The notes under the pieces were generated by a model. The model was given only the letters and a program-made list of their open reading frames with translations, did not search any database and was not told the origin of the DNA. A stretch of 64,000 bases of DNA from Sclerodactyla briareus (taxonomy: Eukaryota > Echinodermata > Holothuroidea > Dendrochirotida > Sclerodactylidae): positions 1 through 64,000 of the forward strand of contig JAODTK010005545.1 in the NCBI GenBank assembly GCA_026419785.1, read 5' to 3'. Positions 119-51,260 of this stretch are shown here, one piece after another. Made by a program: the position numbers and the translations under genes. How positions within the stretch are numbered: the stretch's first letter is position 1; every line of letters begins with the position of its first letter.

Positions 119-1030
119 AAAAACAAAAAAACCCTATAAATCACAGGTTACAGTACGGCCAAAAAAAGAACCAGGTCTAACTCAATTTTTGTAGATTGTT
201 TCATTTTTGTGAGAAGCTGAATGCAAAAAAGAAAAAAGAAAAAAAAATCGCACGCGCGCGCTCTGTGTCCTATCTTTTCCGTTACATGTATAATAATAAA
301 CGTGCGGCCCACGTGTACAATAACCTTGTCAGATTTGACAAATAGATTGGTGTCCACGTGTCCTCTTCAAGGGTGTTGAACCGATCGGTCGGCCACGAGG
401 AGAATTTGAGAATTTATTTGTTATGACTTGATTCATGTGCACCCCTCTCCCCCCCCCCCCCCGCCCCTCCTCACTTCACATTGCCGTGAATCCATACTAC
501 TGCATTTTTTTCACAATGCACACCGTTAGGTCTACTCTGACTTATTGTTTCAAGATTGGCTTTCCAGCCTAACGTGCTGTTTTTTAATATAAGATGAAAC
601 TAATGAACTAAAAACAACGGGCAGGGATCGTGCACATTAGTATAGGCGGTTTATGTGATTGACGTGGAAAACTATACACGGTGCGGAGCGGGGAAACCAT
701 TCTGAGAAATGAGAAATTCGGACGAAACATTTGAGCGGAAACAACTAATCTGAAAAATGACACCAATGGTCTGGTAACTGGCTCCATTCCTTTCAATCAA
801 TGCCCCGAAAAAATGCACACATTTTCCATGACAGGGATGTCAAGCAAAACTTGTCAATCTGCGGCAGCATCAGCCCATGAAGGGTCCTCGATGGAATATC
901 GCTAAGCCATGGCTATGGTAGGAATGGAACCCACGATGAAGAAATGTACGGATTACAGGTTTCGGAAATTCACTGTCAATTTCAGTGAGTGGCATACAAT
1001 GCCATAAGCGCGGGGAAGTGCTGACTCCCA
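119..1030. other. No gene recognised; mostly unique AT-rich DNA
   Basis: No exon-like open frame, RNA gene or repeat family was recognised. A C-run of more than 15 bases lies near 448-465, and there are A-rich tracts near 225-250. Open frames here are short and begin and end without splice-like context. Confidence 0.5.
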
Positions 1031-1034
1031 TGCA

Positions 1035-1590
1035 ATCTGGGGGGGGGGGGGGGGGGGGTCAATCCGTTTCCGGCTATCTGGGGGATTCGTAGGCTTAGAA
1101 AAAAATTCTGACCCCGGGTTGTAAAACGAAAATTTCCCGTGTACATACGCGCCACTGATTGGTGGCGGTTGGCCCGAATTTGTAAGGAATACACAACGAT
1201 CAGTTTATCAAGAACGTTTCTAGAAATATGAATCCGGAATTATTGCCAATTTTAGGGACGTGCTTCCTGCCATACGGTCGGGAAAGCCGTTTCCCTCAAT
1301 TGGGGGTCTTGTAAAACAACAAAAATGTTCCTATACCTCCCACCCCATAGCCTACGCATCAAAAAACCGACGGTGGCCAGGAAAGTATACGGAATAAACC
1401 TTGATTAGTTCCGTCAAGAATGTTTCTCGAAATGAAAACAAAATCGGGGAGGAATTGCTGACGATTTTAGGATGTTGCCATATGCCCTCAGAAGTGCCTT
1501 TTATGCCAATCTGGGGGGTCTGTAAAAACAAAAATTTACGTGTAAGCTACGCTTCAACCAATGGTGGCGCATGATCGCCTCAGATGGTTG
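1035..1590 (-). repeat. ~200-bp satellite, minus orientation, 2.5-3 units
   Basis: Three landmarks recur at about 1,149, 1,351 and 1,548, each a variant of 'cgcgccaccnattggtggc'. Each of the first two is followed by a similar ~200-bp segment containing 'caagaaYgtttctMgaaat' and 'gaattgctgacgatttt'-like text. Reverse-complemented, the units match the array at 3,040-3,915, including the words for 'cttgaaggaactgatcgatg' and 'caagaaacgttcttg'. A 20-base G run (1,039-1,058) sits at the left edge. Units differ by many small indels. Confidence 0.75.
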
Positions 1591-1599
1591 GCTACCTCA

Positions 1600-2940
1600 T
1601 ATGTCCTTCCCCCCCCCCCCGTCCACTCCCCCCAATTATTCAACACAGATCGCCACCCCCTGGTCATTACACAACTGAAAGACAGTTGTGTGAATGAATG
1701 AAAGTATTATTATCATATTGATGATAGATGTAATATGAAAAAAAGCAGGACATTTTAGCTCATTCAACTAGTATAAAACAATTCTGCATCTCCAAAGCAG
1801 CCAGAATTTTCAAAAGGGGACCATGGACAATCCCTTCCCTATGCATCACTGAACCCGGAGCTCCATAATGGGGGACCCCTGAGTTAACTTTTTCCTTACA
1901 CAGAAACATGGCTCCTAGCCTGCTGTTCACTGTTATTTGCTTCAGCTCATGGGTCGCCCTTGCCTCGTGATGCTAATAACAGATGAGGGGACCGTTACCG
2001 CGGGAAATCATGGTTGTACTGTCTAACCGGAATCACGCGATTCGCTATGAAAATAACAAGAAAAAATATACAAATTGCCAAAAGAAAAAATCTGAAAAAT
2101 GAAAATGACGAAACGAAATGTGGTTGTTGGTTAAGGGGTTAGGGTGAGGTTTCTTTTGTCAGGCGAGCTCGACCCCCAGTATAAAAATCGTTCCAGGGGC
2201 CTGACTGGAGTTGGAGTAGCAGGGAATTAGCAGGTGGGGTTATGGAACAACATGGTTCCTGGTATGTGGTCAGTAAAGCACGAGTATGTCTGTCCTGTAT
2301 GGAGCATTGATTAGGTCTCAAACAATTCTATCATGTATTCATGAAATAGATATTTGCAGAACAGAATGAACCTTTAAATGATGTAATGTTAAGGCGATGC
2401 TAATGTCTCGTGCACAATGTTGGTTCTGTGGAATCAAAATTTGGTTATGTGTGGGCATTGATTTGTGTGCTGATGTGTTTGGTTGCGGTGAGAGAGAGTG
2501 TGGTAGGGGTAAGGGTGGTGAAAGAAAGAGAAGGTTTTTTTTGGGGAGGGGTTGCTGGGATATGTAGGGCTTATGTGATTGACACCAGACCAAATCAACA
2601 CCCTGTTCAAGCTTGACATCATGGTACCTGTCTGATTGTGTTGCCTAGTCGAACAGCCTGTTGTTTGCCTATATTTTAGAACCAGCTACAATAATCACAA
2701 CCATTAGTATATCATAAGGTCAGCTGTCCCAGTTTGCTTCTTATTGGACAGGTGTTTGACGAAAAAAAATCATTAAAGGATCATTGGAAAATAATAACAT
2801 AACAACTTTAAGAAATTTAGAGGGGATAGCTCTTCCTCCGAAAACATAATGATTTAATTATAAAGTTATGTAAAATAATGCATTACACAAACCAAACGTA
2901 TTTCCTACACCTCAGTGCAGTGACAGCAGGGGCGGCGATC
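1600..2940. other. No gene recognised; unique-looking DNA
   Basis: This contains a C-run near 1,611-1,630 and a G/T-biased stretch (2,400-2,560) that produces opposing short open frames of low-complexity protein. No splice-bounded coding block, RNA gene or repeat family was recognised. Confidence 0.45.
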
Positions 2941-3039
2941 GGTGTCAAATTTGAAGGGGGGGGGGGGACATATCGAGGTGCACCATCTTGCGGAGCTCAA
3001 TAGTGTGGGCGCAGAGCGTACAAGCGAATTTTTCGTTTT

Positions 3040-3915
3040 CGTTTTTACAGGCCCGCCAGATTGCAGGAAACGGCATCTCCTGAACCGTAAGGCAGTAAGC
3101 AACATTCCTGAAATCGTCAATAAATTCTCGATTTTATTTGCAAGAAACATATCGAAGAAACTGATCGATGTATATTCCTTTAGAATTCGGGCAAGGCACC
3201 ATTGGTGACGGTAGGGGGAAAGGGACAATGTCGTTTTCCAGACCCTACAGAACGCAGAAAACGGCACTTCCGATCGTTGGCAGTAAGCAACGTCCCTGGA
3301 ATTGGCAATAGTTTTTTCCAGAAATTTAAATCTCAAGAAACCTTCTTGGAGGACCCTGTTCGAGTTTTTCCTACAATCAGGCCACGTTAGTGCACGCGTA
3401 GGGTACAAAGAAAATTTTCGTTTTAATTACCCCCCAGATTGCAGAAAAACGCACTTACTGGGCCTATGGCAATTAGCCAACGTCCCCAAACAATTGGCAA
3501 TAAATTGCAAAAAATGATATTTCAAGAAACGTTCTTGAAGGAACTGATCGATGTATTCCTTACAACTTCGGGCCAACAACAGTGGAGCGCTAGGGTACAA
3601 GGAAATTTTGAGCTATACGAACCCACCAGATGCCGGAAACGGGACTTAACGGGGTCTTATCACAGTAAGCAACATCCCTGAAATTGACAATTAATTCACG
3701 AAATTTATATCTCAAGAAACGCTCTGAAGGACTGATATATGTTCATCATACAATTCGCGTCACCAGTGGTTGATGCGTAGCGTACAAGAATATAGTCTTG
3801 CAGAGAGCGGCACTTCCCGGGCCTTATGGCGTAAGTAGCATCACTGGAACGTGACCATACATTTCCGAAAAAATGATCGATGTTAATTCCTAATTTTCTT
3901 CATCGTGACGATGGC
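3040..3915 (+). repeat. ~190-bp satellite, plus orientation, 4-5 units
   Basis: Landmarks 'ccagattgcaggaaacggca' and its variants occur at about 3,056, 3,239, 3,433, 3,626 and 3,797, a spacing of 170-195 bp. Each unit also carries 'agtaagcaacRtccctgRaat', 'caagaaacNttcttga' and 'gatcgatgtatTCCTTacaa', then a variant of the shared palindromic module. It is the opposite-strand counterpart of 1,035-1,590. A 167-residue open frame at 2,905-3,408 is a by-product of the repeat. Confidence 0.85.
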
Positions 3916-3919
3916 CTCC

Positions 3920-4610
3920 ATATACCATAGCCTATTTTAGAGGTCTTCCTTCTGAGGACCCTTCCATTGGGTTGGAGGCTGCTCGCAGATTGAAAGTTTG
4001 CTCGAACATCACTGTCATGGTGAAATGTAGCACTTTTCGGGCATTTAATTGAAAAGGAATTGAGCCAGTCATGCCCGCAGTAAATTTCGTCATTTTTTCA
4101 GATTTGTTTCCGTTCAAAATTTTCGTCCAAAACTTCCATGTCTCAGAATTTCTCCGCGCCCCGCATCGCGGCCCTTTATAGTGCCGTACCAAAGTCAGGC
4201 TGGCAAGCCATGCAGTTGAACAATAAAGAAACAGGCGTAGATTAAACTCTAGCTATTGATTAGTGCAGTGTCAAGAAATGGCAGTTGGTTCCCATCATGG
4301 TTGTAGCTAGGGAGGGGGTGCACAGGTTCAAAATGCCATGTCCCAAACCAAAGTCGCCTGTGGCCTACCCATATATGTCAACCCCTTGAAGATTGGACAC
4401 AGTATGGAGAAAATCATATTTGAAAAAAGAGATCTGACAAAGTTATTTATACATGGTCTACCTGTATTCTACAGTAACGGGAAGACAGAATTACAGCGAC
4501 GCGCAGCGCGAATTTTTTTTTTTTCACATTTCGGCCTTCTCAGCAGAAATTCAAGCATCTGATAAGAAATATGAGTTAGACCCTGGTGTTATGGCAGTAC
4601 TGTAGATATG
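3920..4610. other. No gene recognised
   Basis: No repeat family or exon with convincing boundaries was seen. The minus-strand frame at 3,932-4,192 has unbiased composition and no recognisable domain. A T-run lies near 4,511-4,522. Confidence 0.4.
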
Positions 4611-7353: not shown

Positions 7354-8411
<1,058 letters not shown>

Positions 8412-20665: not shown

Positions 20666-20694
20666 CATGTTCTTCGAAGGAGCGTCACATAGAC

Positions 20695-21716
20695 CATGGG
20701 CGTAACAGGTGGGGGACGGGGGGGGGGGACATGTCCCCACACTTTCAAAAGTGGGGGGGATATCATATCGTTTGTCCCCCCCACTTTCCGGACCGTAATA
20801 AAAATAATAGGCACATGTCCGATTTTGTATCACTCTAAACTGATTCAATTTTTGTCTAACCAAACAATAATCGAGTTGTGGAAATTGTCTTATGTCAACC
20901 AATTCCATGCGGACCCCAGGTGAAGATCTGGACCCGACCAGGGCCAAAATGGAAGGATTACCCATGTTTCATACCGAGTTCTCGAATTTTAAATCGAATA
21001 GCCAGAAGTACATAATTTTCAAGTGTTTCGCGCGCAATGGCGTTTTCTTCCAGGCGTTGTAGGCTAAATATGCGATGTAATGCTTCGGATCATTTCGTTA
21101 ACTCGATTAATTTCAGAATCCTTGGGGGCAGACTGCCTCCCCCCGCCCCAATTTTTCTGAGATGAAAAATTCTGGCGAAAATTCGTGGCAATTTTGGAAG
21201 GAAAAAAGCAAAGTGAATAAAATGCCTGAGTTTTTTGCAGACTTTTTCGAATTAAAACTGGCCCGGGAAACATGCAATTTTTTTCGCGCGCTTCGCGCGC
21301 GCCGGTGGTTTCCAACGGCTGACTTGTAAAATTCGGGTACAAATTTTCGGCTTTCAAATTGGAGTAGTCCCGTACGCTATTGCTTTTCCCTTCGATCCCA
21401 CCAGAGATCGTTCGGTAGACCCCTGGATCTCACGCAAACAAGCCAGAGTAGAGAGGGTAATAAAAAATACCATGTGTGATACTCGGTAAATCATCTTAGT
21501 ATGCACAATGACACTTTTTTTTCTGTCTTTACCAAATCACACATGTAGATGGGTGCTACTGAGCCTGGCAGGTGGGACGATTCTGTCGATCTGGAGGGTT
21601 ATGAAAATCTGAAATTTTCTTGGTACGCTCCGCGCCAACCGATGGTGGCAGCTCCGCTTAGATGGTCATTTGCATTCAATATATCCCCCCACTTTCGAAA
21701 CGCTCCGACGCCCCTG
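20695..21716 (-). mobile_element. Non-autonomous hAT-like element, copy A
   Basis: The element runs from 'catgggcgtaacagg' to '...cgctccgacgcccctg'. Read on the minus strand it starts caggggcgtcgg and ends ...acgcccatg, so the termini are short imperfect inverted repeats. It is flanked on both sides by the identical 8-mer acatagac (20,687-20,694 and 21,717-21,724). An 8-bp target duplication with CAGGG-type ends is the hallmark of the hAT superfamily. Colinear copies lie at 33,717-34,650 and 44,086-45,182. No transposase-like frame is present, so it must move in trans. Confidence 0.85.
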
Positions 21717-21724
21717 ACATAGAC

Positions 21725-33700: not shown

Positions 33701-33716
33701 AGGTATTAGCTTCTGT

Positions 33717-34650
33717 CAGGGGCGTTTGACCGTTTTGGAAAAGTGGGGGGGGACACATCAAATGCAAGTGACCATCTAAGAAGTCGAGCGCCACCATCAG
33801 TTGGCGCGAAGCGTACATTTTTTCAGATTTTCATACCCTCCAGATCAACGGAAATGGCACTTGCCAGGCTCACTAGCAACCCATCTACATGTGTGATTTG
33901 AGTAAACGACATTGTGGTCTACTAAGATGATTTATCTAATATCACACATGGTATTTTTTTTATACTTGTTACTCTGGCTTTGTTTTGCGGGGTCAGGGTC
34001 CTAACCGAACTGGTGGGCATGGTCGAAGGTCAAACCATAGCGTCCCCGCAGATTTACAATTCAGTAATTGAGACACTACGGCGCGCGTCGAGCACGCGAA
34101 AAAGAAATTGCATGTTTTCCGGCATTTTATCGAAAAAGTTTGCAAGGCATTTTTTTCACTTTGCTTTTTTCTTTCCCAAATTTTCTACGAATTTTCGCCC
34201 GAATTTTTCATCTCAGATAAATTGGGGGGGGGGGGCTTCCAAAATCATCGAGTGAACAAATGATGCGAAGAATTTAATCGTCTATTTACGCTACACCGCC
34301 TGAGAGAAACGCAATTGCGGTCGTCATAAACGCTTGAACAATATGCACTGGGCTATTCATTTAAAATGTGAGACCTCGGTATGAAACATGGGCACTCCTT
34401 CCTCTTCGGCCCTAGTCGTGTCAAGATCTTCACCTGCGGTCCGCACCAAGAATTAGCGGACTTAAGACATTTCCAACACGATTATTGTTTGGTTAGACAA
34501 AAATGGAATCAGTTTAGAGTGGTACACAATCGGGCATGTGCCTATTATTTTTCAATACGGTCCGGAAAAGTGGGGGGGGACAAACGATATGTCTCCCCCC
34601 ACTTTTGAAAGTGGGGGGTACATGCCCGTCCCCCCCTGTTGACGCCCTGG
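33717..34650 (+). mobile_element. Non-autonomous hAT-like element, copy B
   Basis: It begins caggggcgtttg and ends ctgttgacgccctgg. It is flanked by gcttctgt (33,709-33,716) and gctctgt (from 34,651), an 8-bp duplication with one base lost. It carries, in order: a G-run, the palindromic module (about 33,788-33,865), an internal inverted repeat catgtgtgat/atcacacatg (33,888 and 33,941), 'tttttcatctcagataaatt' before a G-run, 'tattgtttggttagacaaaa', and the terminal 'acttttgaaagtgggggg' block. It is colinear with copies A and C. No transposase. Confidence 0.85.
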
Positions 34651-34659
34651 GCTCTGTTC

Positions 34660-39470: not shown

Positions 39471-39871
39471 AGGTAGGTCGACGTACTTGGCTGCCAAAAC
39501 GATCGGTTGTACATTGACTCGTTTGCAGACATAAAAAAAACATGACGTATCGTCATTCTAAATAGCTGCATGGTCACTCCAGGACAGAAGCTTACAACCA
39601 TAGGTATTTTGCAAGTCACCGCCATAGTCGAACAAATTAAATTGATTAATCAAACCAAACAATTCGCAGTAGCCAAATCAATCTTTATATTCGTTGATTC
39701 TATTTTTAGGGGGTGGCAGGCCAGTGAGAGGTGATGTAACTTTATGATAATATATATTAATATGTTAAAATATTAATTTACCAGATAATTGTATATTTAA
39801 AACAAAGACTCCACTTCTGATCCTTTAACTTTTCCAGGTCACCTCAGCCGTGGCTGGGGATCGTGAGGGGA

Positions 39872-40213
39872 ACTTCTACCCCCGGACAACTACCCCCAGA
39901 CGTCTACCCTCTGGGAAATACCTCACGGAAAGTCCCAACCCGGCGACCAATAGCCTCCCGGACAAATCCCCCGGACAGTAACCACCAGGACAATCACCCC
40001 CGAAGACAAATGACCCCCCGGGACAACAACCCCTCTCAGACAATTACCCTCCGGGACAATCACCACCGAAGACAAATACCCCCAGGACAACAAGCCCCCA
40101 GAAATTACCCCCGGACAATCACCCCACCCGAAGAGAATACCCCGAGGAAACTACCCACCGGACATGTTACCCCACGGGAAATACCCCCGAGGACGGAATA
40201 CCCCGGGTATAAT
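39872..40213 (+). repeat. ~16-18-bp C-rich minisatellite (arm 1)
   Basis: About twenty degenerate units of the form ccccggacaattaccc/ccgaagacaaataccc occupy 340 bp. The reverse complement of the same unit forms the array at 48,379-48,776. Left edge 'gtgaggggaacttctacccc' roughly mirrors the reverse-complemented outer edge of the other array. Confidence 0.85.
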
Positions 40214-40219
40214 ACCACA

Positions 40220-41075
40220 CTAGCACAATGGGAGGGGTCTAGATCCTTGGTAAGCGGTGTCGCCATGTGCAACCTACTCATGAACCGACCAATCGATCGA
40301 TACGGGGGTATAGGCCAATTGAAAGTTTAAAATGTTGACAATATCTAAGTGTAGCGCCACTTAAACGGTTGGCGCGAAGACAAAAGAAACAGTTTAGACT
40401 GAACGACGAGTTCTTTATGTCGGAAGACCAATACCCATGCGGGATTCACTGAGTATATGTTATGGGCATAAGGTCTAAATATTCTAATTTATTTCACTTC
40501 TCTGTGGTCGGAAAGCGAGCAGAATCTCCCCCGCTATTCTCAGGCAACAGTCACAATGGTTTTAAGAGTCCAAACCGTTACCGGGGAAAAGATTATGGAC
40601 CATCTGCCCCAATCGAACAACTGTTCAAAAGCCGTGGCGCCCGGGCATATTATCATTTTCCGTGGGGAGAAATACGGCCGGAAGCATGAACGTGTCCTAT
40701 CATCCCAAATAAGGATTCCACGGCGGATCACTCAGCATATGATGACGTCTTGTTTTGATTGTAGTTGATCGTCCCTTTGTTATTGCTTTTCCTGTAATTG
40801 CCCAATATGTAAATTGAGCTTTTCCGTTTATCACGTTCCGCTTCCGATTTCGATTTTGTTCCCCAGTGCAAAGTTCTTACAGGTGAAGGCACAATAGCGT
40901 TATGATGTTACAAACGCTTGATATTTCATTGGCTGGATGATTGATTATCAATGTGTGTCATCATTAGGTAAATCTGTAGGGGGGCCTGGATAGAGTCGAA
41001 GCTATATGACGATAAATGGCCACTAAACTGGCTATATCGGGCGAGCTAGCGAATAACTTCCTAAAGATACGGGGA
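40220..41075. other. No gene; a partial module copy
   Basis: 'tagcgccacttaaacggttg' then 'gcgcgaagac' at about 40,353-40,382 is a damaged copy of the shared module. The overlapping frames at 40,462-40,768 have no recognisable domain. Confidence 0.45.
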
Positions 41076-41079
41076 TGAA

Positions 41080-41106
41080 TTTTTTTTTTTTTTTTTTTTT
41101 TTTTTT
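41080..41106. repeat. T27 homopolymer
   Basis: Uninterrupted T run. Similar tracts at 42,765-42,791 and 46,176-46,205 give three in about 5 kb. On the minus strand these read as poly(A), so each could be the tail of a minus-strand retroposed sequence, but no body could be identified. Confidence 0.8.
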
Positions 41107-41109
41107 GGG

Positions 41110-42335
41110 AAGACTGACCGCGGATTTACCGAAATAACGACAAAGGAATGATAGAATATGTGAAACAATCTAATATCGCAATCAAACACTATAAACTTAC
41201 TAATTGAGAAAAACACGCACACGCACACATCGGAAAAACAAACAAACACACGCTCACGCCGCAGCCGCAACATAGAGAGGTCACAGTCACATCTGAGCTT
41301 AACTGTAGGGATGGCGGTATGACCGAGACATGTTACTCGAGGAGAATTCAAGCCCGAGACCGGTATCGACTACATCTGCCTACTCATCTGACGACTTTTT
41401 ACTCACGCGTTTCCAAACTTGATTGAATAATAAATTACCGACATCTCGAATTGAAGAAAGAAGAAATAGCGCTTATACCCCAACATAACACTTTGCAATG
41501 CGCGAAATAATTAGGCGCGTCATTCCAAACCCGTCCGGGAACTACAGGCCATACAGATCAGTGTGTCTACAATCATCGTTAATTGCTTGACATATGTAAA
41601 CTGCTTAAACGTTTGGCCAATCAAATTCCGAATCCTAAAGAACATAGTTTCCTTTATATTCCATAAATACGAACGTCGTTGTTCTTTGCCCTGAAAGTCA
41701 TCAGGCGCGGGTTCTACCAAGGGCGGTAGGAATCGGGGTGATAACCCCCCCCCCCTCCACCCGTGATAAATGTTGGGTTTCCTTTTTTTTTTTTTTGGCG
41801 GATGTTTTGTCCCCCGGCCCCCCCTTATACTCCCGGGTACCCCCCCCCCACCCCGTCTATCCTCGGTGTGAAACCCCTTTTTTATTGCTTCACCGGCACA
41901 AAATTTTCGCAAATAATAATAATTTTTCCGTCAATTACACACTATTTACAACGACCGCCGTGCTGGCTGTCGTATTGTGAGAGCAATCAAATTGTGGTAT
42001 GTTAGGATCAGGAGTAGGGTAGGAATTAAATTCACGTACAACCAATGCGGAAAGCGCTGGTGTTTAAAATTTGCAAATTGACTCCAAGCATTTTTTAACG
42101 ATAGGCTAGTGCAATTTTATCCTTCTGGCATGGAATAAAATTACAAAGAGCGTCCTGGTTAGGTAGCTGAAGCCGTGGAAATACGCAGAAGGGAAGCACA
42201 GCTTCCATCTTAGCACCTCCATTCGGGACAAAAGGAGTTTACCTGGTCCTACACTATATGTTCGCTTTCAGTTGCAAAAATGTTGATGAATGAAAGGTTG
42301 TTCACTTTTGCCAGATATTACCCAGATGATTAGCA
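41110..42335. other. No gene recognised
   Basis: Unique-looking sequence with C-runs and a T-run between about 41,745 and 41,850. The frames at 41,520-42,005 on both strands arise from these homopolymers. Confidence 0.4.
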
Positions 42336-42339
42336 AAGG

Positions 42340-42478
42340 TTACAGCCCACGAACCGGAAGGTCACGAGACCGAAGGTTCGCGAGAGACGAAAATGAAAAA
42401 AAGGTCCACGAGACTGAAAGCCGTGAGACTGAAAAGCGAAAAAAGGGTCCGAGACCGAAGGGTCGCGAGACCGAATGA
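42340..42478 (+). repeat. ~18-22-bp minisatellite with 'cgagaccgaaggt' core
   Basis: About seven degenerate units vary around gaaggtcacgagaccgaagg, ggttcgcgagagacgaaaat and ggtccacgagactgaaag. The spacing and the 'ggttcg' word recall the foldback-arm unit at 49.6-50.9 kb, but the sequences are distinct. No opposed partner array was found in the window. Confidence 0.75.
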
Positions 42479-42479
42479 T

Positions 42480-44075
42480 AAAGGAAATTCTTGGACAGCG
42501 TTGTTACACTCAGATATTGCAACCGGTCGAAGAATAATTGGGGGAGAATGGATTTCCCTAGACATAGTAGTAAAACAAAAATTTGAAGCCAGTGGTATGC
42601 TTCATCCACCTACCGGGTTTTAACCTGACATATGTAAGGCTCAGGTCAATGAGGGAGTGAAGTGTGACGAACAGAATGAACGAACTAACCTGACTAAAGA
42701 AAAGAACGAAGAACGGAGAGACGTTATGACTTGTGAAGCTGCTTACACGCAGCTGAAAATTACATTTTTTTTTTTTTTTTTTTTTTTTTTTGATGTACGC
42801 TAATGGGTAATGATGAAGTAATAGGGTTATTGATGATTTTGGTTGATCCGCCAATACCCGCTATGAGGCGTGAATTGAATTCAATTTACACATAAATTGA
42901 TGTGGTGACACCCTCGTCGAAAGATGTGCCATGATCTGCTCTCATTTATGTGCAGCCGCGCCTGCAAACAAATTAAAATAGTACAAGTTTCACCCGCTTA
43001 ACCAACTGGAAACCCATTTATCAGGCGCGGTTGTACTATAGGCTCCCCGAATAATAAAATCCTTAGTAGATTCGCATCAGCAAAATCGCATGAACTGCTA
43101 ATTGATATTTTTTTTCAAGGTGTGAAGTTTATTTTAATTTATAATATGAAAATGGTCTCTGGCCTCACATTTGGCGTGTCTCCAATGCAATTTGAAAAAT
43201 TGCGCCTAGTAGCCTACGGCTTGGGGGTCTTATTTTAAAACGCACTTCATTTTGTAAAGCTCTTTTTTTTTACCACATAAAAATGCATATATGGCACTCA
43301 CCATTTGTCCTTCTGTAAATATCCACAAGGGATCGCTACGATGCGCAGAAGAAGAAGGAAACTAAATTATTGCCGGCTTCGCAATAAGGCGCAAATTCGC
43401 ATGAACTAGAAGAGGCCAAGTGGAATTCACTTCTGATTGTAAAGTGATGTTCGATTCAGTTATGAGAATGGCAATCTGTTTTGATACGCTGCGCGGCCAC
43501 CGTGGTGCCGCCCGCTCGTGATAGTTCGAAAAAGCGTAAGAACATCGTGGGACTAAGTTGAAATTCAAGTTTTTTTTTTTTTTTGAGATATTACGAAAAT
43601 AGATATCTGGAGATCACCCATTGGCATTTGAGGAAGACCTGATTTCGAAAAGTTTGCTACGCTGCGCGGCAACTAAGGGTGACACTTCCATTAGATAGAT
43701 AAAGCCGTTTGAACATACAGTGACTAAGATGAAATTCATTTAATTTCCATAATGGATACATGGAAAAATGTCCATTGGTGCTCACCAAGCATCTAGAAGA
43801 CGGACTTGACGTTTCACTAAGGCTTAGAGGCACCAGTGGGTGTCGACTCTGATGTCATAAGAGATATTTTGTATGGACATACTGTTGGGTAAGTGATTTT
43901 TTTTTCATTTGAACTTCGGTTCATTTGAATATGAGTTTTTCACAACGGAGACAACTTTACTTTAAAAAATCCGGGCGAGGGGCAATTGGCCATAGAACCC
44001 ATATTGGAAACCCGAGGGTTCGTCTCGTGTGCATAAACTAGAGAGGTGTGTGATTAAGAAAGTATGTTTCCAGAA
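42480..44075. other. No gene; T27 tract and unique DNA
   Basis: A T27 run lies at 42,765-42,791 and a T15 run at 43,570-43,584. Two loosely related segments, 'tacgctgcgcggccaccgtg' (about 43,486) and 'tacgctgcgcggcaactaag' (about 43,659), suggest a weak ~170-bp repeat with module-like words. Confidence 0.45.
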
Positions 44076-44085
44076 GCCTGTCAAC

Positions 44086-45086
44086 CAGGGGCGTCGGCCG
44101 TTTGAAAAGTGTGGGGGGGGGGCGGCAATCGAATGCAAATGACCACTAAGCGAAGCGTTACAAGAAAATCTCAGATTTTCATACCATCCAGATCGACAGA
44201 AACGGGCACTTGCCCCGGCTCAATAGCACCCACATACATGTGTGATTTGAGCAAACAAAAGACAGAAAAAAAGTTGTAATTGGTGCATCTAAGCGATTTA
44301 CCGAATATCACACATGGTATTTTTCTATTAACTTTTCTACTCTGGCTCCGTTTGCATGGGATCCAGGGTTCTACTGAACGGTCTCTGGCAGTCTGGTGGG
44401 ATCGAAAGGGACAGCCATAGGCGTAAAGACCACTCCAATGTAGGAGCAGAAAATTTGGACCGAATGTACAAGTCAGTATCGGAAACTAACCAGCGCGCGC
44501 GGGAGGCGACCGCGAAAAGTATTGTAGGTTTTCCGGGCATTTTATCGACATAAGTCTGCGAAAATTCAGGCAGTTTTTTTTGCACTTTCCTTTTTCCTCC
44601 CCCAATTTTCCACGAATTCGCACCGAATTTTTCATCTCAGGAAAAATTGGGGGGGGGGGGAAGTATGCCCCAGGCTTCTAGAATTATTGGAGTGAACAAA
44701 ATGGACTCTCGAAAAGCATTACATCGATATTCAGCCTACAACGATGGGAAATTTGCCGCGCGAAAACTCAAAAAAAGTATGCACTTTTGGCTATTCGATT
44801 TACACATTCGAGAATCGGTATGAAACATGGTATTCTCCACTTCGGCCATATAGTCTGGTCCAGATCCTCACCTGGGGCCTACGTGGAATGGTGGAACTTA
44901 AGACAAATTCCCAACGCGATTATTTGTTGGGTTAGACAAAAATGAAATCAGTTTAGAGTATACGAAAGGGGCAGTGCCTATATTTTTATGACGTCAGGAA
45001 AGTTGGAAAGTTGGGGGGGGAGGGCCAAAAGATATGATGTCCCCCAATTTGAAAGATTGTCTCCCCCCCCCCCCCCCCCCCCCCCC

Positions 45087-45122
<36 letters not shown>

Positions 45123-45182
45123 ACCCCCACCCCCCCCCCCCCCACCCCCCCCCCCCCCCGTCCGCCACCTGTGACGCCCATG
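44086..45182 (+). mobile_element. Non-autonomous hAT-like element, copy C
   Basis: It begins caggggcgtcgg and ends ...cacctgtgacgcccatg. Flanks are ctgtcaac (44,078-44,085) and ctatcaac (45,183-45,190), an 8-bp target duplication with one mismatch. Internal order matches copies A and B, including the inverted repeat catgtgtgat (44,237) and atcacacatg (44,307). The right part has expanded into an almost pure C tract (about 45,063-45,158) with a few A interruptions. No transposase. Confidence 0.85.
45063..45158. repeat. ~96-bp C-tract with A interruptions
   Basis: Poly(C) is broken by single A residues inside hAT-like copy C, where the other copies have short G/C runs. It creates glycine- and proline-rich artefactual frames on both strands. 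The minus strand has very high G-quadruplex potential. Confidence 0.9.
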
Positions 45183-45199
45183 CTATCAACTGAATATTT

Positions 45200-46172
45200 G
45201 AGGTGTAAAAGGATGCTTGTAGCCAGATTAGGACTATCAACTGAACATTTGCGAGAATAATTCCAATAAAAAAATATTTACATGTTAGGGGTGCTATTAT
45301 TGCCTACTTCCCAAAGGCACCGGACAGTGGGAAGTCCTTTCCTGCTATCTCACGAACATTTGTGGATATGATGTTGCGCGCGCACACACGTGGTGGCGAT
45401 CGGCTCAAAAAGTCATCCCTTGCTGATGGGCCCCCCAAAATCACTTTTGCACGACGGACCCTGCCCCACCCTCTTCCAGCGGCTCCCACTGAAAATTCTG
45501 CTACGTACTGGAGTTAAAGTACCAAAAGTACTCTTTCCGGCATTGATGACCTATTTCTCTCGAATTTCAAGCGATAGTACAAGCAAGGATTGGGCTCCGT
45601 TTAGATAACCAGCAAAATCATCCCCCACATTTCACAACGGGTGTGTACTAATTAAATATTGTCACCTTCGCTATCAGATATTAATGATGTGTTGCTATTT
45701 TATTATGCCTATAGGCTGCAGAGTAACAACTCTTAACATACTTTACTTTACTAAAATCGCACATCCGATTTTTGACAATAGCCCGGGCAAGTGCCAGTTC
45801 CGGCGATCTAAGAGGTTATAAAAAGCTACATTTTCTGAGTGCGTACGCGCCAACCAATAGTGGCGCTCCGCTAGTAATTAAATTGCAGTCACTGTCCCTG
45901 TTCGGGCAACAAAGTACCGGTCAGAAAGAACGACAGAAAAAAGGGGCTAACCGCAGTATCAAAACCCCATGCATGAGGTTCCAGGCGATGGTTAGTGTTT
46001 CTTCCAGGAATGGTACGCAGTTTCACAGCTCAGAGAGCTAAGGCCGTTAAATGTGCATCAATGATCTCGATCAGCCTGATATGAAGTGTACGTTTATCTA
46101 GAGGAGAAAAAGGCACATGTCAATACACTAACTGCTAAACATCAGTTATAAAACAGAAACGATTGTCACCTT

Positions 46173-46205
<33 letters not shown>

Positions 46206-46705
46206 CGACTGTGAGTTTGTTCAGGTCGGCATACACTGATGGGCTGAAGGAGAGGAATCACTGATGCACTCGTATGGCTTGGTTATATTACTTGATATGA
46301 TGTGGAGAAAGGGAAAACCCAACCCTCACATATAGATTCCACTAATTCCAGTAAGGTGCAAAGATTCATGGAAGTTTTCCAGGTAGGTTATCCCACCTGG
46401 AAGAAGGCACATTGTTTCTAGCCGATAGTGTGAGTATGAACGGTTTCATCTCAGTCCCCCGAGGGGGGCCATTCCCACGGCATGCTAGGAGGGTGTTAAA
46501 ACCCAAGAATGTTCTGAGTGTTCCGGGCAAACCTATATGTGGCGACCTTTTAGATAGTGACCCGCGCACCTGGGTTGATAAATGTCTGATGTGCTCAGTA
46601 GTAAGAGGAATGGTCGCTGATCATCAAAAAACTTATAATTCAACAACTATGCAGCAGTTTGTCGGAACATCCCTGTCAGAAAACAGGGGGTAAGACTAAC
46701 GCCCC
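45200..46705. other. No gene; one minus-strand module copy and a T30 run
   Basis: A well-preserved module in minus orientation lies at about 45,781-45,872 (caagtgccagttccggcgat, then 'tacgcgccaaccaatagtgg'). A T30 run lies at 46,176-46,205. The opposing frames at 46,366-46,693 show no recognisable domain. Confidence 0.5.
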
Positions 46706-46713
46706 CTTCACCC

Positions 46714-46872
46714 CATTGGCGGTCATCAACATCTTAAAAGTCGGGGGGGGGGGGAGGGTGATATGGCAAAAATTTTTCAAAATTTAAATGTTAAAGTCAA
46801 TAGGAAGCATTGTCAAAAAGTGGGGGGGACATGAAATGTCCCCCGCCCCGGCCCACACCGTTGACGCCCATG
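46714..46872 (+). mobile_element. Short (159-bp) hAT-like miniature element, copy D
   Basis: It begins cattggcggtcatcaac and ends ccgttgacgcccatg, matching the termini of copies A-C with small indels. Flanks are cttcaccc (46,706-46,713) and cttcccct (46,873-46,880), 6 of 8 identical. Only the two G-run ends and a short AT-rich middle remain, as expected of an internal-deletion derivative. It lies immediately upstream of the LINE pseudogene. Confidence 0.65.
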
Positions 46873-46880
46873 CTTCCCCT

Positions 46881-47962
46881 GAACAGTATAACCGATTTAC
46901 CTTCCACCCAGCGCCTATACACCATGCACTAGTGAATACAAATTGCAGCCATCCAAATTACGCAGCCATACCAAAGTACGCGATGACGTTCAATCTATCT
47001 CCTTGTCCCACCAGATGATATTGACTCGTCAATATGTCGTCTCGAGAGATTTATCGATAATTTATGTCAATGACTGGATGAACAAAAATACGCTCACACT
47101 CAACCCCCTCAGTAAAACTGAGTTATTATTTGTCGATGAAAAAGATGTCTCCCCCCCTGTTTTAGATTCATAAGACGCTGCCATTAGATACGTCCCGATC
47201 CGTGATTACTCCTTCCATCGAGGTTAGAAATCTCGGAGTTATCTTCGACTCGAAACTGTCAATGGTTCCCCATGTCAATACAATTTTGCCGTTCAGCGAA
47301 TTTCAGCTAAAATATTTGGGAGGATTCCGTTCTAATCTCAACGAAACTGCCTCTTTACATATTGCTCATGCATTATTACCGCTAAACTTGAGACTGTAAA
47401 TTTCCTGTTCGGCCTACCCATTACCACTCTCAAACCGCTGCAGCGGATTCTCAACTCTAACGCAAGGGTTGTCTGCCGATGTCCGTCCTTGGAAGACAGT
47501 ATCACACAATCCTGAAATCACTTCACTGGCTTTCCATTAATGAACGCATTTAGTTCAAGATTTTCTACTAGCATTTAGTTTCCAACAAGACCCGCATAAC
47601 TCAGTCATCTGCTTGAAGGATTACAAGCCTCGCCGTTAATCTCAGAACTGCCGACAGAAAACTCCTGATTGTTCCACACAGATCCTCAAGATGGCGACAC
47701 CGAGAGTTCGGTTTGGTTTCTCACATGCTGCCCCCGGCACTATATAACAGGACCCTGAAGATCTCCGTCAGTGTCAGAACTCGTCTACCTTCAAGTCCCG
47801 TATAAAAAACCTCATTTGTTAATTTGTATATATGTTTATTGTTCGCATGTTTCGGTTTTTTTCGTCAAGCGATTCGAGGCCCATTGGGAGAGGCGCTCTA
47901 TAAATAGTGTTAGTATTATTTATTATGTCCCTTTTATTTTATTATTATTATTAATTAATTAC
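46881..47962 (+). mobile_element. 5'-truncated CR1/L2-like LINE, RT palm end to 3' tail
   Basis: The RT catalytic box YADD is readable at 46,977-46,989 if one missing base is allowed, followed by VQSISLSHQ. Then come DWMNKNTLTLNPLSKTELLF and VRNLGVIFDSKLSMVPHVN in the adjoining frames, FGLPITTLKPLQRILN, NARVVCR, SLHWLSINERI and FKSRIKNLIC with stop at 47,820. This order is standard for the RT palm-thumb-C-terminus of CR1/L2-group elements. The 3' tail has the 'gaggcgctctataaatag' then ATT-repeat ending typical of that group. At least five frameshifts make it non-functional. Confidence 0.9.
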
Positions 47963-47964
47963 AG

Positions 47965-48375
47965 GTCCATCACATCCATTAATCTCCAACAATGACTTTT
48001 TCACATGGAAGCAAGCTCGAATTCCAACACCATGAATAAAAATATAAATTACAATAGGTGAAATTATTTTCGACTTGTAGAGGAGGTAAGACAAGCCTCG
48101 GTGAAAAAGCAGCAAATTCAGAGATAAATAAATTCACTGATCATGAGGATATTGTTGTAATATTAGTGGGTATGGGTCTGGTAAGGACACACACACATTA
48201 CAAAATTTTGATCATCACAGGCGCGGGTTGCACGGCGGCACGGCTGTTCACAGTGACTCGCTGCGTCGAATGTAGCCAACCTGGATTGAATTCCGGAGGC
48301 GTCTGAGACAATCTGAATTCGGTTCCAAAAACGATCTTTTCCAAAAACGTTATTTAACATTATCTGTGGGCATTC
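47965..48375. other. No gene recognised
   Basis: Unique-looking sequence. The frames at 48,058-48,360 have no recognisable domain. Confidence 0.4.
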
Positions 48376-48378
48376 TGT

Positions 48379-48776
48379 TCCGGGGGGATTCGTCAGGGAG
48401 GGTAAGTTTGTTGTCCGGGTGATAGTCTCGAATGATAGTTATATAGGACTGACTTCGGGGGTGATTTGTCTGGGGTAAATGTCCGGTTGGTAGACCGGTC
48501 CCCGGGGGTATTTGACATCGGGGGTATTTGACGGGGGGTGAATTGTCTGGCGAGGTAGTTGTATCGGGGGTATTGTCTTCGGGGGTGGTAATGTCGGGGG
48601 GGTGAGTGTCTGGGGGTAGTGTCCCTCGGTGGTATTTGTCCTAGAGGGTAATTGTCAGGGAGTCATTGGCCAGAGGGTCATGTCCGAGGGTAATTTGTCC
48701 AGGGGGTTGTTGTCCTCGGGGGAGTTGTCGAGGGGTATTGTCAGGGGGTTATTGCCGGGGGTAGTAGCCCTAGCAC
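48379..48776 (-). repeat. ~16-18-bp G-rich minisatellite (arm 2)
   Basis: Degenerate units such as gggggtaattgtccgg and gggggtatttgtcttc occupy ~400 bp. They are the reverse complement of the units at 39,872-40,213, so the two arrays face each other across 8.2 kb. The outer edge reads, reverse-complemented, 'gtgctagggctactaccccc', loosely like the outer edge of arm 1. Confidence 0.85.
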
Positions 48777-49585: not shown

Positions 49586-49602
49586 TTGAAGGGCCCTTAT
49601 CG

Positions 49603-50935
49603 GGGTACAGCCGATATTTCATAAGGTTCCTATTAATAAGGTCTTCCCTTGTCAGTGTTCATAGGGTCATTATTCATAAGGTTCGGTATTCATAAGTTCG
49701 TTATTCATAATGAGCAAAAAAGGTTTCATTGTTCATAAGGTTTCGTTATTCATAATGGCGAAAAAGTTCGGTATCAATAAGCCCAAAAAAGTTCGTCGTA
49801 ATGCATAATATTTAAAAGGTTTGGAATTCATAATAATAAAAAAGGTTCGATATCATAATATGGATGAAAGGATCGGATATTCTATAGAAATAAAGATTGA
49901 TATCCTAATAGAAAAAAGGGTCCTTTATTTAAACAAAAACCCAGGTTCGATAGTCATAAAACGACAAAAGGTAGATATTATAAAGGCAAATGGTTCGGTA
50001 TCCATAAATAACGCAAAGCAGGCGCGTACGAGAGATTTGTCTTGGGGGGGGATGGGGGGGTTGGGTTGGGGCACCCCAGGGAAGTGCGCCATCATAACTG
50101 GCCACACCCCCCTATTGGCAAAAATAAGTACAAGTTAGGGGCCCTAGACACATGCTGCGCAAGATTTCCTGCTAAAAATAACAGTGCAAACTCTACTGAA
50201 CTTTGCAAAACAAAAAATGTTGTGAAAATTTTATCGATCACTTGGGTAACGGGGGTCCTAACCCCCATGTGGGTATGCCTCTGGTATGAACCTTCAAAAT
50301 AATTTCCCCACGACCACCTACGCCACTTATATTAGGATATTATGAATATCGAACCGTTCGTCCTATGATGGAAAACAAACCATTTCTTCTATATGAATAC
50401 CGACCCCGGTTATCTATTCATGAAGAACGAACATTTTCTTATATATCGAATACCGAACCCTTTATCTATTATGATATCGAACCTTTTTTCTATTATGAAT
50501 ATATCGAACCTGTGGCCATCATGGATATCGAACCTTTTTATTCTATTAGGAATATCGAACCTTTTGTCCATCATGGATTATCGAATTTTTGTTCTATTAT
50601 TTTTTTACATATCGAACCTTTTGTCCATTCTGGATATCCAACCTTTTTTCTAGTATGAATATCAAACCTTTTTTTATATTATGATATACATTTTTGTCAA
50701 TTATGAATATCAAACCTTTTTTTCTATTTAATGACTATCAAACCTTTTTTATAGTATGAATATCGAACCTTATTGATATCGACCCCTTTTCCCCTTTTAT
50801 TATGAATAGCGAACCTCATGTCCATATGAAGTATTACGAACCTTTTTTTCGAAAATTGCCCTAATGAATTACGAACCTTATGAATTTTAATGACCCTGAT
50901 GGATACGAACCTTATGGAGTATCGAGCAGACCCCC
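49603..50935. mobile_element. Foldback-type element with minisatellite arms
   Basis: The left arm (about 49,603-50,010) consists of short degenerate units of the form ggttcgatattcataa. The right arm (about 50,335-50,930) consists of the complementary units ttatgaatatcgaacctttt. The arms flank a ~320-bp non-repetitive centre. Units become A-rich (aaaaaaggttcg) inward on both sides and end in 'cataaggttc' outward, so the arms match unit-order as well as composition. Long inverted arms built of short tandem repeats define foldback transposons, including sea-urchin TU elements. No transposase is encoded. Confidence 0.8.
50020..50328. mobile_element. Central region of the foldback; possible nested hAT miniature
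   Basis: The left end reads 'caggcgcgtacgagagattt' and the right end 'gaccacctacgccact', so both carry a GGCGTA-type terminus resembling CAGTGGCGTA...TACGCCACTG hAT ends. It includes a G-run (50,043-50,060). A clean 8-bp duplication could not be read, so this is tentative. Confidence 0.3.
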
Positions 50936-50965
50936 CCCCCCCCCCACCCCCCCCCCCCCCCCCCC
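50931..50965. repeat. C-run at the outer edge of the foldback
   Basis: A 35-base tract of C with one A immediately follows the last right-arm unit and separates it from the SINE. Confidence 0.9.
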
Positions 50966-50999
50966 TTATCAGTCCCCTTGATTACTTGCACTAAATGAG

Positions 51000-51260
51000 T
51001 GGCTGGCCACAGTGGTATTAGAGCATTGGCTTCCACCGGGAGGTCGGATCGAATCCCAGTCGGGTAATACTAAAAGACTTTAGAAATGGACCTGTTGACC
51101 CTCGTGCGGGGAGCTCAGCACAAGAGACGGGAGCAGGGAAAGGAAAGGCTTCAGGCAACACTGCACCCCCCACGGTCGTCTGACATTCACAGCAGGTGGG
51201 CTTGCGCGGAGGTGTCAGAACTAATTAGGCCCTGCAAGAGATTGGCGCTGTTCACAGGTG
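51000..51260 (+). mobile_element. tRNA-derived SINE
   Basis: A pol III A box-like 'tggtattagagc' (51,013-51,024) and B box 'ggatcgaatcc' (51,046-51,056; one mismatch from the consensus) sit at tRNA spacing. The flanking text is 'ccaccgggaggtcggatcga' and 'cccagtcggg', as in tRNA-related SINE heads. No intact acceptor stem is seen, so it is not a functional tRNA. The body to about 51,260 is unassigned, and the right boundary is uncertain. Confidence 0.65.

Follow-up and report, generated by a model that had tools for sequence, protein, structure and literature searches.

Foldback elements, such as TU of sea urchin (15-bp units, 8-bp duplications) and FB of Drosophila (9-bp duplications), have long been known mainly by their structure, and the question of what moves them is often open. 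The locus described here is similar to both in having long inverted arms of short tandem units, as compared from their descriptions and not their sequences, and a Mutator/foldback architecture of the Tm1/Muta1 type fits it at least as well. Tm1, a Mutator/foldback element of root-knot nematodes, is alike in its composite terminal inverted repeats (TIRs), which consist of asymmetric outer motifs (A1/A2) followed by a variable number of tandem repeats (13–15 bp in Tm1), in the different lengths of the two arms of one copy, and in its lack of a clear target consensus (PMC3169594). It differs in its repeat unit, in its duplications (mostly 9 bp, range 8–10, compared to 8 bp here), in the identity of its TIRs (93% on average over the aligned parts, against about 70% here) and in having a form that codes for a Mutator-like transposase, of which none was found here (PMC3169594). 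Muta1, a MULE of Aedes aegypti termed a type 2 foldback element, shares the terminal motif with subterminal tandem repeats, the duplications of 8 or 9 bp and the many non-autonomous derivatives with variable centres; it has a 12-bp unit, a 145-bp TIR and a coding 3.2-kb form, whereas the arms here measure 400–600 bp and no coding form was seen (PMC5225508). Tetris of Drosophila virilis, whose description also cites sea-urchin foldbacks, is likewise a non-autonomous foldback element with tandem repeats in its TIRs, a variable middle, 8–10-bp duplications and a missing transposase, but its units are of ~220 bp and also form satellites (PMC4079207). The element presented here is thus a further member of the foldback elements, with an architecture that is already known and is nearest to Tm1 and Muta1. 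Among the open-access papers that literature searches listed, none has a title or abstract opening that describes the family itself.

The locus lies in the window, the whole 64-kb stretch of DNA that was analysed. The initial annotation had placed two arms of 400–600 bp facing each other across ~320 bp, and the sizes measured agree with it, at ~411 bp for the left arm, ~604 bp for the right one and ~320 bp for the centre. Its boundaries were also near-exact, as the element starts at 49602, one base outside the claim, and ends at 50934, or at 50962 (27 bases beyond) with a run of C, giving an extent of 49602–50962. The unit core AAGGTTCGATATTCATAA, an 18-mer searched with up to three mismatches, has all 17 of its places in the window inside 49678–50879, six on the + strand in the left arm and eleven on the − strand in the right one, while shuffled windows have a mean of 0.07 places and at most one; this bears out the short degenerate units on both strands that had been proposed. 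The unit consists of AAGGTTCGATATTCATAA and an A-rich spacer, and is degenerate and mostly 15–30 bp long. Steps of ~16 bp (TTCATAAGG) make up the outer part of the arms, and further in the units measure ~25 bp and include the A-rich spacer, in agreement with the inward A-richness noted earlier. The E1 arm (49602–50012, + strand) is cut by the unit core into 17 pieces and begins with the E1 terminus (49602–49626, + strand), which reads GGGGTACAGCCGATATTTCATAAGG compared to the family form GGTGACAGCCCGATRTTCATAAGG and has an end-scan score of 16 for a maximum of 24. Beyond the centre (50013–50330), the inverted E2 arm (50331–50934, − strand) is cut into 24 pieces, locally shows a higher-order period of ~51 bp and closes with the E2 terminus (50910–50934, − strand; reverse complement GGGGTCTGCTCGATACTCCATAAGG, family form GGGGTCTGCTCGATATCCATAAGG), which scores 22 for the same maximum. 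The arm units of this copy are 0.71–0.72 identical.

Aligned in inverted orientation, the two arms reach a score of 110, against 17 in direct orientation; 300 shuffles averaged 24.7 and did not exceed 39. The proposal that unit variants are mirrored holds for their order, since 110 is above the best (109) and the mean (83.6) of 400 unit-order shuffles, but not for a unique register: the banded scan gave 76.5 at offset 0 and 92 at +175, and one mirrored register for the two arms was rejected for want of a single best offset. The locus therefore has the architecture that defines the foldback class, a centre flanked by inverted arms of short tandem units, and the snap-back of single strands is seen by computation: the arms could pair strongly, with a computed energy gain of −120.8 kcal/mol versus −24.5 kcal/mol in 20 shuffles. 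Close to the element, window positions 51005–51100 look by eye like the head of a tRNA-derived SINE, which neither ARAGORN nor Rfam (at the gathering cut-off) reported.

As to the insertion of the window copy, CCCTTATC is the sole 8-mer common to both flank stretches tested (49594–49601 and 50963–50970). On the left it directly adjoins the tip, while on the right it comes after an expanded C run (50931–50962) that extends the tip ...GAGCAGACCCC. Some 8-mer is common to 470 of 5000 random flank pairs, and the CCCTTATC pair taken alone is modest insertion evidence. The E2 ends of three other copies (L026, L029 and L030) read ...GACCCC or ...GACCC, and among the 50 runs of at least eight C in the window one, presumably that of the E2 tip, is followed by bases that, after CCC, recur in the left flank. 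The copy reaches 4 of 8 bases in the automatic duplication test, below the threshold, because the scan set the right tip before the C run. Both tips carry indels, and are missing from the lists of E1 and E2 places at up to two mismatches while being caught by the looser end scan. Fixed tips with target-site duplications are found for the family, and for the window copy through CCCTTATC, not through the automatic test.

The genome searched was the window's own assembly (319 Mb, 3171 contigs). A 16-mer of the unit, with up to two mismatches, has 1111 + 1263 places in it, compared to 115 + 91 for the reversed control, and 20 stretches were picked among the unit matches listed. Pairs of a + arm followed by a − arm are present in L026–L029, L037, L040 (twice) and L042, and long pairs in L030 and L031. 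The outer tips are constant across copies and differ between the two ends, forming the asymmetric pair GGTGACAGCCCGAT / GGGGTCTGCTCGAT. This is the consistent outer boundary whose absence would have told against the initial annotation: E1 (GGTGACAGCCCGATRTTCATAAGG, up to two mismatches) has 96 places in the genome and E2 (GGGGTCTGCTCGATATCCATAAGG) has 10, with none for either control. Twenty of the 96 E1 places are exact matches to E1b (GGGGACCGCCCGATGTTCATAAGG), the partner tip in a sister group (subfamily 2) that pairs E1 with E1b and has its own centre of ~135–160 bp in L037 and L040. A subfamily-2 copy at 343723–347518 of contig C3024 has its − units in two blocks (344266–344500 and 347388–347481), and looks as if its second arm had been interrupted by ~2.9 kb. 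C3019, a candidate long form of the same subfamily, was rejected, as it looks composite and by eye has no recognisable coding frame. In the viral contigs scanned, two double-unit patterns gave no match, and 17 loci had a single 16-mer match each, taken as chance.

An end scan was run on the window copy and the 40 loci L026–L065 (41 sequences), a sample that favours intact copies because selection went by matches to the unit or the tips. It found 23 facing end pairs. The 18 pairless sequences comprise 16 with one tip, eight of which covered 1.5 kb only, and two (L036 and L039) with arm units and no tip; L034, L038 and L039 each belong to a longer copy. Unpaired arms, which would have spoken for separate satellites, thus occur without being general. 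When the 8 bases adjoining the tips were compared with shifts of up to 3 allowed, 9 of the 23 end pairs were exact (8 of 8) and 14 had at least 7, while mispaired ends gave 7–8 of 8 bases in 1 of 506 cases, so that the target duplications predicted at the outer ends were recovered. No duplication of at least 7 of 8 was found for the nine remaining pairs (L026 with 6, L027, L030, L037, L045, L050, L060, L064 and the window copy). Since exact pairs fall to 3 of 23 in a 9-bp comparison, the duplication length of the family is taken as 8 bp. In L026 the units of the right arm are 0.98 identical and those of the left arm 0.80, which shows that the arms change independently and that one arm can amplify alone.

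The longer relative with a transposase that the initial annotation had suggested looking for was found as to its length, but not as to a recognisable transposase. L031 (on contig C1595) measures 7336 bp from tip to tip and has a perfect 8-bp duplication, TAACTGCC. It is 80.6% identical to a copy on C2260 (7036 columns) and 79.9% to one on C3071 (7068 columns), the latter two being 80.1% identical to each other (6975 columns); the scan detected no E1 tip for the C2260 copy, and no E2 arm is present within the stretch covered for the C3071 copy. Parts of the long-form core also occur in L030 (7063 bp, duplication 5 of 8), in a pair spanning ~17 kb on C2656 and in an incomplete copy on C329. A search with this core gave at least 53 matches from the best 40 of 542 candidates, and two matches on C3150 are without an arm in the stretch covered. 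The interiors of L030 and L031, in six frames, gave one weak and irrelevant match to Pfam (E 0.04, below the cut-off), and the substitutions among the three long copies have no codon phase (largest chi-square 5.7 in 132 windows). The long form was for these reasons rejected as an autonomous element.

The centre of the window copy is 70–72% identical to those of L026–L029. In the 7.3-kb long forms, the E1-inner side is matched by part of 50043–50267 and the E2-inner side by 50262–50329 (the last ~68 bp of the centre), and these two sides lie ~6 kb apart there. Both inner sides are joined in four of the five short copies tested (the window copy, L026, L027 and L028), while L029 has the E1 side only. 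From this comparison, the short copies look like internal deletion products of the long form. A C-rich stretch followed by GGTACGCC lies at the core edge on the E1 side of the C2260 copy and on the E2 side of L031, with GGTACCGGCC in the corresponding place on the E1 side of L031; because of these stretches, it is a fair inference that a deletion between short direct repeats made the short forms. The reverse direction, in which the core was inserted into a short form, is possible. The middle of the centre (approximately 50040–50290, limits deduced from the match to positions 35–295 of L026 2352–2713) we read as a separate dispersed repeat, as 36 of the best 40 of 1646 candidates are confined to ~31–301 of the 362-base query. 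One edge of this repeat lies near GTGGGTACGCCCCTG, and it is perhaps a MITE.

A second foldback element is located beside this copy, at 39867–48775 of the window. Its arms are made of ~15-bp units (CCCCCGGACAATTAC), on the + strand at 39867–40215 and on the − strand at 48380–48775, and contain 13 of the 14 places of CCCCCGGACAATTAC in the window (up to three mismatches); its unit order is mirrored to an extent that none of 400 shuffles reached. The 8.2-kb interior has no Pfam match in six frames. Decayed ORF pieces at 47166–47400 within it, which we take to resemble the end of a LINE reverse transcriptase, have no Pfam match either. Relatives of this element have tips near GGTGCTAGGGC (L080, L082, L083 and L085) or CGTGACGGGGC (L080 and L084), and L084 and L085 have interior pieces in common. 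No target duplication was apparent in its flanks in the window; by eye, L080 has one possible duplication pair with 7 of 8 bases. The window also contains a third inverted pair at 679–4168, with outer parts at 679–955 and 3884–4168 (74%) and inner tandem units of ~190 bp inverted at 1168–1534 and 3036–3788, whose tested ends have no 6-mer in common. A ~1-kb dispersed repeat is present in three copies that are 69–77% identical (20687–21719, 33714–34657 and 44150–45083), the third of which sits inside the second foldback element, and a CA microsatellite of 1.06 kb occupies 7354–8411.

Which transposase moves the family was addressed by profile searches of the genome. The 8-bp duplications of the family fall within the 8–10 bp of Mutator-like elements, with which it also shares the long TIR with subterminal tandem repeats. 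The MULE domain gave no match in the genome at E 0.001 (0.18 for the best relaxed match), in a search that could miss divergent, intron-split or unassembled genes, and no MULE transposase was found in the L030 and L031 interiors. Other domains gave 38 matches for the hAT dimer, 10 for P-type, one for KDZ (Zisupton) and one for IS1595/Merlin-type, none of them inside a copy as judged by the E1 list and the stretches covered; the contigs of the E1 list, itself covering part of the family, carry neither the KDZ nor the Merlin match. The asymmetric tips and variable short tandem repeats match the plan of Tm1 and resemble Muta1. A transposase of the Mutator/foldback type is the likeliest mover, with about an even chance, and we lean towards a divergent or unassembled Mutator-type enzyme. 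A mover from the P superfamily, to which the foldback-like Galileo element of Drosophila belongs, is unlikely: the genome has P-type domains, and Galileo is described as having long internally repetitive TIRs (PMC3573991), but the contigs of the E1 list (again only part of the family) carry no P-type match, and the duplications given there for chimeric Galileo copies are of 7 bp compared to 8 bp here (PMC3573991). Somewhat less probable is that a single transposase lineage, not among the five domain families searched, serves both foldback families, whose units (25 and 15 bp) are unrelated but whose GGTGAC-like tips resemble each other; such an enzyme would move large (7–9 kb), wholly non-coding elements in trans by recognising their tips, leaving the arm units to evolve freely.

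The tips of hAT elements read YARNG, and their duplications have the consensus nTnnnnAn. A hAT enzyme, whose duplication length of 8 bp fits and whose dimer domain has the 38 genome matches, is a still more doubtful mover, as the tips of the family (GGTGAC/GGGGTC) begin with GG, by which hAT tips were rejected, and the pattern is absent from 15 duplications (the 14 and that of the window copy, in unnormalised orientations), with T at position 2 in four and A at position 7 in five. By-eye comparison with the E1 list, up to 20 kb on the E1-inner side, gave a sole hAT match, 12.6 kb away on C3024; it was rejected as part of the copy, being outside it because the copy already ends at the E1b tip, at 347518. 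That the structure is not a transposon at all, but an inverted satellite that arose on the spot through foldback replication or slippage, is highly improbable and was rejected, for although arm length varies, one arm can amplify alone and some arms have no partner in the stretch covered, the tips are fixed, 8-bp duplications lie flush with them, and colinear 7-kb copies occur on different contigs.

The feature in the window is almost certainly one old, non-coding copy of a family of foldback (internally repetitive terminal-inverted-repeat) DNA transposons, the reading of the initial annotation being upheld by the fixed tips, facing arms and 8-bp duplications across its own genome. Asymmetric fixed tips, inverted arms, 8-bp duplications, dispersal, a 7.3-kb form and short forms lacking ~6 kb were all observed for the family. 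In the proposed mechanism, a transposase made elsewhere would bind the tips and the repeated units in trans, the arm units acting as multiple extra binding sites; both steps are suggested by the architecture and by statements on the repeats of Galileo and Tetris (PMC3573991, PMC4079207). The element would then be excised and inserted with an 8-bp stagger, in a cut-and-paste manner. Each arm may lengthen or shorten on its own via slippage or unequal exchange, and internal deletion would give rise to the short forms.

The family combines precise tips and 8-bp duplications with a non-coding long form, and it includes copies whose units are near-identical as well as copies whose units are degenerate. 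It therefore makes testable which enzyme moves foldback elements, and how the arrays in their arms expand, degrade and remain recognisable.
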